Origin: Coriobacteriaceae bacterium | GTDB lineage: Bacteria; Actinomycetota; Coriobacteriia; Coriobacteriales; Coriobacteriaceae | DNA: 12,010 nt | Assembly (NCBI GenBank): GCA_902363875.1 | Contig: CABJBO010000044.1 | Location: 1-12,010, forward strand | Reading direction: 5' to 3' | Part shown: positions 534-4,309 of the stretch, piece by piece | How the letters are laid out: each line of letters opens with the position of its first letter | Position numbering within the stretch: the stretch's first letter is position 1 | Translations under genes and position numbers: made by a program | Notes under the pieces: model-generated | Databases searched by the model: none | Told to the model about the DNA's origin: nothing | The model's input: only the letters and a program-made list of their open reading frames with translations

Positions 534-631
534 GCGAGTCCCAGACGGGCGATCTGCCTTTCAATCGTCGGGCATGGGCAAAAGCCCTATGCCCTCCTCT
601 TTCAAGGCACCTCGCCGCGCCTGGGACTCGC
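534..631 (-). ncRNA. Candidate structured RNA in the hypA leader (long purine-mismatch hairpin)
   Basis: The whole segment folds on itself. Arms 534-544 and 621-631 pair over 11 bp; 546-547/618-619, 548-552/612-616, 555-560/604-609, 570-575/589-594 and 576-579/584-587 continue the helix to a 4-nt loop at 580-583, about 34 Watson-Crick pairs in all. Read as minus-strand RNA, the 9x9 stretch GAAAGAGGA (603-595) opposite GACGATTGA (569-561) gives three tandem G.A/A.G steps separated by A-U, A-U and G-C pairs. As plus-strand RNA these would be poor pyrimidine mismatches. This asymmetry argues for function in the strand that also carries hypA. It matches no riboswitch consensus I can recall. It could instead be a palindromic repeat element. 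Confidence 0.5.
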
Positions 632-679: not shown

Positions 680-3457
680 TTATTTCTTCCCTAATTTAAT
701 CTTGATGGCGCGCTTGAGCGCGTATTTACCAAGGCTTGGGAGCTTTTGCTCGTATTTGACCATCGTGGAGCACTCGGGGCGGTCGCGATCCAGATGGATG
801 GCGTCAAACGCGCACTTGGTGGTGCACAGGCCGCAGCCGATGCACTTGTTGGGGTCGACGATTGAGGCACCGCAGCCAAGGCAACGGGCGGTCTCGGCGC
901 GCACCTGCTCTTCGGTAAAGGTCTCGACGTACTCGCTGAAGGGCGCGGCCTTCTCGCGCTCGTGGTCCACGTGGGCAACCTCACGGCTCGCGTTGTCATA
1001 GCTCTCGATCACGACATCGTCGCGGTCGAGCGCGGCGTAGCGGCGCTGGTTGCGGCCGATGGTGAGCGTGGAGCCCGGCTGCACAAAGCGATGGATGGAC
1101 ACGGCGGCCTCGTGACCGGCGGCGATGGCGTCGATAGCAAAGCTGGGACCGGTGTAGACGTCGCCGCCCACAAAGATGTCGGGCTCGGCGGTCTGGTACG
1201 TCTGCGGATCGGCAAGGGCACCCTGGCTGCGGCCGAGCTCCACCTTGGAGCCAGCCAGCAGGTCGCCCCACACAATGGACTGGCCAATCGACATGACGAC
1301 ACGGTCGGCATCGACACGGCGCAAGTCGTTCTCGTCATACTCGGGCGCAAAACGGCCCTCGTCGTCAAAGACACGCGTGCAGCGCTTAAAGGTGATACCG
1401 CACACACGACCGGCCTCGTCCAGGTGAATCTCCTTGGGGCCCCAGCCGCAGCTAATGTGCGCGCCGTCCTCAATGGCCTCGCGACGCTCCTCCTCGCTGG
1501 CAGGCATCTTGACCTCGCTCTCCAGGCAGAACATCTCAACGTGCTCGGAACCCAGACGGCAGGCGTTGCGCGCGACATCGATGGCCACGTTGCCGCCGCC
1601 CACCACGATGGTGCGCCCGGGCAGCGCGTCGATCTTGCCGCTGTTGACCTCGCGCAAAAAGTCGACGGCCACGGTCACGTCCTCGGCATCCTCGCCCGGA
1701 ATACCGGCAAGGCGGCCACCCTGGCAGCCAATGGCCACGTAAAAGGCTTTAAAGCCCTGCGCGCGAAGCTCGTCGAGCGTCACATCGCGACCGACCTCCA
1801 CGCCATAGCGGAACTCGGCGCCCATCAGGCGAATGACCTCGACCTCGGCCTCGATAACGTCCTTCTGCAGCTTAAAGCTGGGAATGCCGTAGGTGAGCAT
1901 GCCGCCCGGGCGCTCGTTTTTCTCGAACACGACGGGCTTGTAGCCCTTCTCGGCCAGATAGAAGGCGCAGGACAGACCGGCCGGACCGGCGCCGATGATG
2001 GCGATCTTCTGGTCGAAGCCGCCGGCACGCGTCGGGGTCACCACAGGTGGGACATAGCGAGTCGCGGCATCCAGATCGCGCTGGGCGATAAACTTCTTGA
2101 CCTCGTCGATGGCCACGGCCTCGTCCACGCGACCGCGGGTGCAGGCATCCTCACAGCGGCGGTTGCACACACGGCCGCAGATAGCGGGCAACGGGTTCTC
2201 GCGCTTGATGAGCGCCAACGCCTCGTCATAGCGGCCCTGCGCCGCGAGCTTCAAATAGCCCTGAACGGCAACGTGCGCGGGGCAGGCCGTCTTGCAGGGA
2301 GCGGTGCCGGACTCATGCGTCTCGATACGGTTGTCGTTGCGGTAGTTGGGCGACCACTTGGTGTGGTCCCACTTGGTGGCATCGGGCAGCTCCTGGCGCG
2401 GATACTCGGGCACCTGTCCGCCAGCCTTTTTGCTACAGAGCTTCTGGCCCAGTTTGGCGGCGCCGGCCGGACACACCTCAACGCAGCGACCGCAGGCCAC
2501 GCACTTGTCCTTCTCGACCTTGGCGACGTAGGCCGAGCGCGACAGGTTGGGCGTGTTGAACAGCTGCGAAGTGCGCAGGGCGTAGCACACGTTGACGTTG
2601 CAGTTGCAGATGGCGAAGATTTTGTTCTCACCGTCGATGTTGGTGATCTGGTGCACAAAGCCGTTGTCCTCGGCCTGGCGCAGGATGTCGTAGACCTCCT
2701 CGCGCGTCACATAATGGCCGCGGTCGGTCTCGACCACGTAGTCGGCCATATCGCCCACGGCGATGCACCAATCGGCCGGGTCGTCGGCGCAGCCCTCTCC
2801 CATCACGCGACGGCTCGCGCGGCAGCTGCAGGTGCTAGCGGCATACTTACCTTCGTATTTGTCGAGCCAATGCTCGATATGCTCGATCGGCACCGAGGTG
2901 CTCGCGGCATCGATGGCCTTCTCGACCGGAATGACATGCATGCCGATGCCGGCACCGCCGGGCGGCACCATCGGCGTGGCCTTGGACAGCGGTCCCTTGG
3001 ACGCCTGCTCAAAGAACTTGGCATAGACCGGATGCTCCTCGAGCTGGCTCACGCGCATGTTGAGGAACTCGGCGGAACCCGGCACCAGCATGGGCAGCAC
3101 CCACTGCTTGGCGCGCTCGGGGTTTTCCCAGTTGTACTCGAGCAGACCCGTGTAGCTCATGTCGTCGAGCATTTTTTCGATATCGGCCTCGGGCATGCCG
3201 GTGAGCTTGACCATCTCGGGCAGCGTATAGGGACGGCGCATCTTCATCTTGCAGAGCACTTCGGCCTGCTCGTCGGTTGCGGCCTCGGCAAACGACCAGT
3301 ACTCGTAGCCCAGCAGCTCGTCGCGGTGCAGCAGGCGGTTGGTGCAGTGCTCACACAGTTTGACGATGGCCTCGCGCGGATGCTCCGGTATCGGCGGCAC
3401 GAACTCCGCGCCGATATCGGGCTCGGTATAGCTAATCCCCGGTCCGTTGAGAATCAT
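680..3457 (-). CDS. Multidomain FAD/NAD(P)-dependent iron-sulfur oxidoreductase (GltD-like fusion)
   Basis: A 925-residue cytoplasmic electron-transfer flavoprotein. Residues 1-310 form an iron-sulfur module with a winged-helix-like stretch (75-110), CEHC (35-38), CSC (210-212), C223, C231 and CNCNVNVC (284-291). A ferredoxin site CVACGRCVEVCP (319-330) follows. Residues 388-439 carry the GltD-type cysteines (C388, C392, C427, C431, C435, C439). The FAD site GAGPAGLSCAF starts at 489, the NAD(P) site GGGNVAIDVAR at 620, and the second FAD-contact segment GGDVYTGPSFAIDA near 764. The C-terminus has CLGCG (859) and CIGCGLCTTKC (872-882). By family knowledge it moves electrons between NAD(P)H, FAD and 4Fe-4S clusters; substrate and partner are unknown. 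The ATG at 3457 has AAGGGA 5 nt upstream; the open frame continues to 4135 but runs through the divergent promoter and the tetR gene, so that extension is not coding. It is divergent from a TetR repressor gene. Confidence 0.85.
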   Translation of the reverse strand: MILNGPGISYTEPDIGAEFVPPIPEHPREAIVKLCEHCTNRLLHRDELLGYEYWSFAEAATDEQAEVLCKMKMRRPYTLPEMVKLTGMPEADIEKMLDDMSYTGLLEYNWENPERAKQWVLPMLVPGSAEFLNMRVSQLEEHPVYAKFFEQASKGPLSKATPMVPPGGAGIGMHVIPVEKAIDAASTSVPIEHIEHWLDKYEGKYAASTCSCRASRRVMGEGCADDPADWCIAVGDMADYVVETDRGHYVTREEVYDILRQAEDNGFVHQITNIDGENKIFAICNCNVNVCYALRTSQLFNTPNLSRSAYVAKVEKDKCVACGRCVEVCPAGAAKLGQKLCSKKAGGQVPEYPRQELPDATKWDHTKWSPNYRNDNRIETHESGTAPCKTACPAHVAVQGYLKLAAQGRYDEALALIKRENPLPAICGRVCNRRCEDACTRGRVDEAVAIDEVKKFIAQRDLDAATRYVPPVVTPTRAGGFDQKIAIIGAGPAGLSCAFYLAEKGYKPVVFEKNERPGGMLTYGIPSFKLQKDVIEAEVEVIRLMGAEFRYGVEVGRDVTLDELRAQGFKAFYVAIGCQGGRLAGIPGEDAEDVTVAVDFLREVNSGKIDALPGRTIVVGGGNVAIDVARNACRLGSEHVEMFCLESEVKMPASEEERREAIEDGAHISCGWGPKEIHLDEAGRVCGITFKRCTRVFDDEGRFAPEYDENDLRRVDADRVVMSIGQSIVWGDLLAGSKVELGRSQGALADPQTYQTAEPDIFVGGDVYTGPSFAIDAIAAGHEAAVSIHRFVQPGSTLTIGRNQRRYAALDRDDVVIESYDNASREVAHVDHEREKAAPFSEYVETFTEEQVRAETARCLGCGASIVDPNKCIGCGLCTTKCAFDAIHLDRDRPECSTMVKYEQKLPSLGKYALKRAIKIKLGKK

Positions 3458-3550
3458 AGTCGTCCCTTCTCTTGCCACAGCCCGGCGAGACCGCAGCGCC
3501 CCTCTTTTTTTGCAGGCCGGGCATGCCCCCATGCCTTTCACCCGCCATTG

Positions 3551-3619
3551 TTGACATTGTGTCAAAAATAGTATTGACGAACCGTCAACAATATTCAAGA
3601 CTGTTAGGCGAACGGTCAG
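3551..3619. promoter_or_regulatory. Divergent promoter/operator cluster, probable TetR-family binding sites
   Basis: The gap between the oxidoreductase (start 3457, minus) and tetR (start 3647, plus) holds two perfect palindromes with 6-bp arms and 3-bp spacers: TTGACATTGTGTCAA (3551-3565) and TTGACGAACCGTCAA (3574-3588). A degenerate third copy, TAGGCGAACGGTCAG (3605-3619), matches the second at 11 of 15 positions. The three centres lie 23 and 31 bp apart. On the minus strand TACTAT (3573-3568) may be the -10 of the oxidoreductase, which would place it inside the operator. Auto-repression by the adjacent TetR protein is inferred from position. Confidence 0.6.
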
Positions 3620-3646
3620 GCAAAAGAGGATGAAAGGCGGCAAAAC

Positions 3647-4309
3647 ATGGGCAACAACGCAGCAGATATCTCTGTGGTCGATGCCGTCCCCGCATCCGAT
3701 AGCGCGGCAAAACGCCTGACGGGCGACGAGCGCCGTCGCGAGATCCTCGCCGCTGTGCGCGCCGTGAGCGCCGAGCTTGGTGTGTCCCATCTTTCGGTAT
3801 CGGCCGTGACCAAGCGGGCTGGCTGCACGCGTTCGCTGTTCTACCACTACTTTGCCGATATGGATGCCGCCGTCACCGCCGTTATGGACGAGGCAATCGA
3901 CGGCTTTATCGCCGAGCTCGAGCAGTGGAACGCCAGCCGCACGGTTGGCGACATCGAAGGCGCACTCGACACCGTTGCTCCGCTCTTTAAGCGCCTGGTC
4001 GTGAGCGGCCACGAGTTGCCGAGCACGCTCACCTCGAGCAGCGGCGCGCTCTACGGCGGCTTTTTGCACAACGTGGTCCAGCGCGTGGCGCAGTATATCT
4101 GCGATACCACCGTGGTGGATTTTGTCGCCCATCATGAGCTACGCATCGACCATGTCTACGAGACGTTCTACACCCTCATTATGGGGTTGTTGATGTATAT
4201 CCGCACGCACCCCGATGTGCCCGACGAGACGGTCAAGGAAATCATCGCCTCGACACTCCACATCGAGGGCTATACCGCCAAGTATCCGGAGCGCAAGCCC
4301 CAGAACTGA
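3647..4309 (+). CDS. TetR/AcrR-family transcriptional regulator
   Basis: A 220-residue one-component regulator. The N-terminal DNA-binding domain spans about 28-80, with the helix-turn-helix around LSVSAVTKRAGCTRSLFYHYF (first residues at 49) and the family-typical FYHYF near 65-69. The rest (85-200) is a helical ligand-binding and dimerisation domain that varies too much to name a ligand. The first 25 residues are a poorly structured extension ahead of the usual start. The ATG at 3647 has AAGG 9 nt upstream; an earlier ATG at 3630 is out of frame. It is divergent from the oxidoreductase, with palindromic sites between them, and is followed after 63 bases by the membrane-protein gene, which it probably shares a transcript with. 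Repression of itself, the oxidoreductase and the membrane protein is inferred from layout. Confidence 0.88.
   Translation: MGNNAADISVVDAVPASDSAAKRLTGDERRREILAAVRAVSAELGVSHLSVSAVTKRAGCTRSLFYHYFADMDAAVTAVMDEAIDGFIAELEQWNASRTVGDIEGALDTVAPLFKRLVVSGHELPSTLTSSSGALYGGFLHNVVQRVAQYICDTTVVDFVAHHELRIDHVYETFYTLIMGLLMYIRTHPDVPDETVKEIIASTLHIEGYTAKYPERKPQN

Follow-up and report, generated by a model that had tools for sequence, protein, structure and literature searches.

The hairpin on the minus strand at positions 534 to 631 of the window, the 12,010-nucleotide stretch of Coriobacteriaceae DNA analyzed here, is not a switch for the adjoining nickel gene, hypA, but one copy of a scattered repeat. As far as searches show, the repeat is an undescribed family that is new, unusually structured, and REP-like. 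The explanation that we favor, at a probability of roughly 0.6, is a REP-like palindrome dispersed in Collinsella and related Coriobacteriia, whose spread and effect on the host we infer. It is backed by the many copies, the compensatory changes that accompany a retained fold, the tail-first placement at stop codons, and the exchange of variants at one site between strains. Word searches of the open-access literature, taken to their best-ranked results, returned no paper on such a Collinsella repeat. PMC8040213 gives, in the part available to us, 3161 candidates, 250 of them palindromic, and the repeat may figure among the candidates in its tables.

The window hairpin and its parts

All features of the window described here are read from the minus strand unless otherwise stated. 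The segment at 524 to 641 folded with a predicted energy of −81.5 kcal/mol, against a mean of −43.3 kcal/mol (standard deviation, 3.7) for 200 dinucleotide shuffles, none of which folded as well (z = −10.32). The plus strand of the same segment also folds, less strongly (−67.9 kcal/mol; z = −8.34). The long hairpin described in an earlier note on this sequence was recovered at 534 to 631 from the fold energy and from covariation among copies, with 38 predicted pairs instead of the approximately 34 that had been claimed. Its 9-by-9 central region reads in the order given there, namely, G.A/A.G, A-U, A-U, G.A/A.G, G-C, and G.A/A.G. The 5′ half, GAAAGAGGA, occupies 595 to 603 (read 603 to 595) and is supported by the sequence, the fold, and the conservation of its outer G.A step; the 3′ half, GACGATTGA, occupies 561 to 569 (read 569 to 561) and is supported by the sequence, the fold, and conservation. 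An extra 2-by-2 loop, GG opposite GA, lies outside this region.

Further parts of the unit were absent from the earlier note. The aligned copies share a 5′ end motif, GGACAGCGAGCG (629 to 640, read 640 to 629), in which AGCGA is invariant in the 15 rows of alignment A1, and a 3′ end motif, GCAGCGTC (526 to 533, read 533 to 526), whose invariance in the same 15 rows is partly circular because the motif served to orient and trim the copies. A small second hairpin, CCGCCGTTC-GGTA-GAACGGCGG, occupies 497 to 518; it adjoins the big hairpin in many copies and shows compensatory changes in its stem. The big hairpin with its end motifs (523 to 640) was the sole match in the window to covariance model R1, at 129.5 bits, a score obtained by a sequence that was itself one of the 15 used to build R1. 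Downstream of this inverted copy lies the hypA-like gene (56 to 484, with a GTG start at 484 to 482), an open reading frame that takes its name from the earlier note, and upstream lies another open reading frame on the same strand (680 to 4135, stop codon at 680 to 682).

No Rfam family matched above its gathering threshold over the whole window. At a relaxed threshold, positions 440 to 760 gave one chance-level snoRNA match (E value of 1.8). Collinsella-1 RNA (RF01700; Weinberg 2010, PMC2864571), in the accessible part of that paper a candidate structured RNA of Actinobacteria and the human gut, is like the element in that description but differs in that the window gave no Rfam match to RF01700.

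Copies, range, and conservation of the fold

The genome nearest to the window among those compared (G001) gave 18 BLAST matches to the segment at an E value of ≤0.001, representing 17 distinct places on many contigs and 69 to 97% identical. The window and 14 of the G001 copies make up A1, which excludes L066, L068, L074, and L079 and from which R1 was built. At an E value of ≤0.01, R1 located 37 places in G001 and 32 to 48 in nine others of the 13 genus genomes in the set of relatives, with three places in G013, one in G005, and none in G002. At an E value of ≤0.001, matches were present in 48 of 59 family genomes, comprising 34/37 within the genus and 14/22 in other genera (up to 42 matches). 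The 37 Collinsella genomes divide into 22 with 28 to 48 matches and 15 with 0 to 14, and no match at this threshold was obtained in G002, G063, and G064. The complete genome G056 holds 38 R1 matches, one of which is a second reading of another; the totals per genome may likewise count a few palindromes twice (e.g., L174 of L167). A broader model, R2, matched at least 57 of 197 genomes of the class in at least 18 of 93 genera, lower bounds that reflect stricter filters and the scoring of only 22 candidates per genome; 22 of the 57 matching genomes lie outside the family, with 1 to 10 matches each.

Copies are frequent across G056 except between 0.384 and 0.914 Mb of contig C1, approximately 530 kb around the likely replication terminus that contain no R1 match. 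Phages yielded no match to the element and plasmids a single record, a 900-kb Collinsella piece. This record (NZ_OY725717.1, named plasmid 6; 899,693 bases) looks like a piece of chromosome because it carries the genes for rpoC, RNA polymerase alpha, and ribosomal proteins.

The unit consists, in order, of the big hairpin (∼100 nt), the linker GCAGCGTC, and usually the small hairpin (∼22 to 28 nt), which follows the linker in many copies and whose loop reads, for example, GGTA or GTTA. Pair types swap at five of nine positions among 40 distinct small stems, although these counts lean toward pairing because only perfectly paired stems were collected. A narrow pattern for the small hairpin matched once in 400 kb sampled from G056, as part of an element copy. 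A divergent short subtype (L068, L104, L105, L106, L117, and L173) lacks both the small hairpin and the end motif. In L156, L078/L085, L208, and L209, a copy is joined to another at the apical loop or a second unit begins inside the first, an arrangement that suggests breakage and joining at the hairpin tip.

The earlier note looked to covariation in the arms as the mark of a genuine fold, and the copies display it. Both sides had changed in 23 of 35 predicted pairs among the 15 sequences of A1 and in 26 of 29 pairs in A3, an alignment of 30 cluster representatives of <88% identity that excludes two L167 rows, L074, L163:1512, and L117:1439. Paired cells made up 83.2% of A3, compared with 64.8% for shuffles and 31 to 46% when one side was slid, and the covariation score was 0.464, compared with 0.155 and 0.077 to 0.180, respectively; the structure is favored over its slid versions by having been drawn from the same sequences. 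The measure of further pair types in A3 did not exceed the shuffles (163 of 500). Judged from these alignments, evolution has preserved the folded shape of the family through changes in its sequence.

Conservation of the G.A positions, also expected in the earlier note, holds for the outermost step, which is nearly invariant (A3 columns 24/70 and 25/69, in 28/30 and 30/30 clusters), and fails for the two inner steps, which occur in 12 to 15 of the 30 clusters and are replaced in other subtypes. The three-step motif is real, and the family is defined by just one step, the outermost. The copies also have unpaired purines and an apical-loop CTT that are conserved. We know of few bacterial repeats that vary in sequence from copy to copy but retain a detailed non-Watson-Crick fold. 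One near-perfect palindromic copy (L167, positions 1501 to 1620; −106.4 kcal/mol) has lost its G.A mismatches.

The structure had also been proposed to be specific to the strand that bears the G.A pairs. With the arms aligned symmetrically, pair-flanked mismatches on that strand numbered 17 G.T and 4 A.C in 27 clusters and 63 G.T and 11 A.C over 93 sequences, L167, L163:1512, and sequences shorter than 99 nt being excluded. The model-based alignment (28 clusters) likewise gave 40 G.T and 17 A.C, both of these counts belonging to alignment A2. A3 did not show the asymmetry (20 G.T and 24 A.C), probably because it misaligns the arms of the short subtype. Strand specificity is borne out by two of the three counts and contradicted by the third; on balance, and with moderate confidence, the selected fold appears to be that of the G.A strand.

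Placement and exchange at gene ends

Placement was tallied at 89 loci with a central match, comprising the best-scoring places and the top 29 of G056, a nonrandom sample with sites common to several genomes; here and in the replication counts, genes were called with our own codon-score script in place of a standard caller. On the 3′ side of the G.A strand, the neighboring gene was opposite in direction at 76 loci, in the same direction at 11, and unassigned at 2, and the corresponding numbers for 40 distinct sites were 36, 2, and 2. Its stop codon lay 25 to 40 nt from the model end at 28 of the 36 opposite-strand sites and 28 to 34 nt from it at 58 of the 76 opposite-strand loci, a distance close to the length of the small hairpin plus linker, so that the stop abuts the small hairpin. 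Six loci, apparently one site (proB) in six genomes, have the stop 3 nt from the model end. On the 5′ side, the neighbor was random in direction (45 same, 41 opposite, and 3 unassigned among the 89 loci).

The RefSeq annotation of NZ_OY725717.1, which is taken to equal contig C6 of G007 since the match position agrees, gave the same picture. For all 11 copies checked, of 14 listed, the next gene was opposite, and its stop lay either just inside the model end or no more than 33 nt from it. The genes ending there are proB, an M20 peptidase, an SDR, queA, tyrS, map, rpoC, lysS, DAHP synthase, a hexose kinase, and lacB. Another gene with a copy at its 3′ end is, from its sequence, presumably prfA. 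No metal or redox theme is common to proB, queA, tyrS, map, rpoC, lysS, lacB, and prfA. In the usual arrangement, the G.A strand runs antisense to the gene behind which the element lies. The window copy, whose G.A strand is in sense with hypA, is inverted relative to this arrangement.

Most copies share one orientation to the replication fork. This was the case for 26 of 29 copies in G056, where 177 of 307 sampled genes (58%) are leading, and, by hand tally, for 23 of 29 in G061 (one near the skew switch left out; genes, 192/314) and 27 of 33 in G068 (two near the skew switch left out; genes, 219/296). Because much of this bias follows gene orientation and the excess in G068 is small, no separate replication effect is claimed.

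Many element sites are common to different species, and two were followed across the genus, with loci obtained from 30 of the 38 genomes that have queA and from 30 of the 37 in which prfA matched strongly. The unit lies directly behind the stop codon at 18/18 close queA loci (≥93% identity) and 17/17 close prfA loci (≥94%). R1 matched all 35, more weakly in five that are cut by contig ends or aberrant. By eye, the 25 more distant genus loci (12 queA and 13 prfA) have no unit at the gene end. The stop stays at the same position or within about a codon of it. R1 and R2 found nothing in these 25 besides two weak matches (18 and 22 bits) in L244 (3257 to 3365) and L245 (3278 to 3386), more than 1 kb from the end of prfA. 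Close genomes differ in how they combine the small hairpin with big-hairpin arms and the tail that follows, and the same arm types recur at other loci (at prfA, 16 of the 17 loci were compared, L234 being left out). The proB copy is identical in G001, G010, G011, and G053, against whole loci that are ∼92 to 93% identical, and this perfect identity beside diverged flanks could reflect a host function. No clean insertion with target duplication was seen among the compared sites.

Candidate explanations and known systems

If the element is a dispersed REP-like palindrome, the unit would spread, or exchange between sites, via its folded single-stranded form, either DNA or an RNA copy, on which a candidate host or mobile enzyme would act. 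It would settle behind stop codons because no gene is broken there and, lying then in the 3′ untranslated region (UTR), would perhaps affect mRNA ends as reported for REPs. The copy beside hypA would be an inverted exception with no special tie to that gene. Counting against this explanation are the 11 of 89 loci with a 3′ neighbor in the same direction, the lack of any clean insertion among the compared sites, the many sites common to different species, the wobble count on A3, the identical proB copies, and the outcome of the search for a mobilizer, in which none emerged among the candidates tested.

RAYT matches (PF01797) were present in 14 of 21 relatives, and a RAYT partner was rejected, since R1 found no copy in the 16 PF01797 neighborhoods examined (approximately 7 kb each, one of 5.2 kb) out of 33 listed. 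The high-copy genomes G001 and G006 contain one RAYT apiece, and the two are of different types. Several RAYT types occur in Collinsella (L130 to L145), and some are flanked by their own GGGGACAG-type repeats, which are separate from the element family. A reverse transcriptase partner (group II intron or retron) was rejected on the absence of PF00078 from all seven high-copy genomes; PF00078 was found in two of five low- or zero-copy genomes (G005 and G013). An IS110 partner was likewise set aside, being absent from two of eight genomes. IS110-family genes do adjoin element copies in L352 (NZ_OY725717.1, 458120 to 459444) and in G061:C1 (2219838 to 2221328 and 221881 to 223371); the two G061 matches begin exactly 1372 bases before a copy, and no copy is listed near a third, equally scoring G061 gene at 972884. 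REPs are targets for some insertion sequences, and by analogy the element end CGCTGAC may be a target of IS110.

The element is a REP-like palindrome in the broad sense: like REPs, it is dispersed, palindromic, and intergenic, with many copies near gene 3′ ends. It differs in its unit of ∼120 nt with a second hairpin, its nearly invariant tandem G.A step, and its preferred gene orientation. REPs elsewhere are also reported near gene ends and stop codons; the position is in that respect familiar, and what is added here is a preferred orientation. Di Nocera 2013 (PMC3733652) describes, in the part available to us, GTAG-tagged and CGTC-tagged REP families of 20 to 40 bp with stems of 5 to 13 bp, the CGTC families having no dedicated transposase. 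In the species diagrammed there, conv-REPs lie mostly ≤20 bp from the 3′ ends of both flanking open reading frames and uni-REPs lie near the 3′ end of the upstream one, and stop codons are often formed by GTAG termini; a word search of the main text found no mention of Collinsella. In the comparison with GTAG-tagged REPs, a crude motif script found GTAG immediately ahead of the small hairpin in 11 of the 76 copies, from 89 loci, in which that hairpin was recognized, and the element flanked a RAYT gene at none of the 16 loci taken from the 33 listed places. CGTC-tagged REPs have an 8- to 9-bp stem with an adjoining unpaired CGTC; here, CGTC falls within GCAGCGTC between the hairpins, the big hairpin greatly exceeds that stem length, and several linker bases set the small hairpin apart.

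The element also resembles other palindromes. ERIC, YPAL, and similar palindromic miniature elements are ∼100 to 170 bp long, fold as palindromes, and are intergenic, and the Collinsella element is like them in size, fold, and position. The comparison is one of descriptions, and to our knowledge neither the G.A step nor a two-hairpin unit belongs to ERIC or YPAL.

A host-selected 3′-UTR element, whose paired hairpins in the mRNA would terminate the transcript, shield it, or delay the ribosome at termination, is rather unlikely. The placement behind stop codons and the identical proB copies in four genomes with differing flanks agree with it, and E. coli REPs within 15 nt of a stop codon stall ribosomes, according to the accessible portion of PMC12306157. 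The strand with G.A conservation and, in two of the three counts, G.T tolerance is antisense to the mRNA, which is moderate evidence against a simple role at mRNA 3′ ends and for single-stranded DNA or an antisense RNA. Intrinsic terminators (a G+C stem and a U run) did not exceed chance at the window copy (one terminator-like site in 440 to 760 against 0.8 expected), the 25 distant queA and prfA loci have no unit at the gene end, and variants replace one another at one site.

A more far-reaching reading is doubtful. It would make the family an old, Coriobacteriia-wide class of strand-specific, shape-recognized elements, set exactly at stops by a dedicated single-strand mechanism. The mechanism would be attC-like or RNA-templated exchange at ordinary gene ends, the hairpins would act as interchangeable cassettes, and the G.A step would be the recognition mark.

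The G.A strand might instead encode a trans-acting small RNA family, that is, many copies of one regulatory RNA, as the wobble asymmetry, the conserved unpaired purines, and the apical CTT would allow. This is very unlikely given the random direction of the 5′ neighbor and the lack of a sigma-70-like promoter in 440 to 760, a scan of the window copy by a model from which Coriobacteriia promoters may differ. That the element is itself an attC-like single-strand recombination site, recognized by its shape, is highly improbable. Such sites lie behind stop codons, and at 76 of the 89 loci the Collinsella element likewise has its folded strand, as assigned by two of the three wobble counts, antisense to the gene and directly behind the stop. 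Set against this likeness, no integron integrase scored above the TIGR02249 cutoff in 13 genomes (weaker matches occurred in every control genome as well), no cassette array was seen, and the attC core motifs as we know them are not apparent at the ends. Variant exchange and the pairing of low sequence conservation with high structure conservation would fit a site of this kind, the bottom strand of attC being folded and recognized as a single strand by its structure (PMC8191803, in the part available to us).

A hypA leader RNA or a riboswitch with a metal or redox ligand, which the earlier note suggested and which the position of the window copy directly before hypA, with the G.A strand in sense, would favor, is scarcely credible given the copies at many unrelated genes and the hypA loci themselves. 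The 20 closest hypA relatives are all from Collinsella (L001 at 99%); the window's copy is present at 5 of these loci, a different copy in the opposite orientation at 2, and no R1 match at 13, so the link to hypA is incidental. A riboswitch found consistently upstream of hypA and nowhere else was rejected on the 5 of 20 loci and the dozens of other sites. In L002, L005, L008, L010, L013, L016, and L018, the place of the element upstream of hypA is taken by a different hairpin with GGGGACGGCG arms. What survives of the original proposal is a structured element that is unknown to Rfam and covaries, with one conserved G.A step and, against one of three counts, strand specificity; its link to hypA does not, the copies being dispersed at unrelated genes. 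The earlier note had itself named many genomic copies at unrelated sites as the mark of a repeat, and the 17 places in G001 and 38 matches in G056 are of that kind. Such hairpins should not be annotated as gene-specific riboswitches.

If the placement at stop codons and the antisense fold hold, the dispersed element would provide a testable instance in which a folded single strand is recognized at gene ends, and the family would give a common human gut genus variable markers at dozens of its genes.
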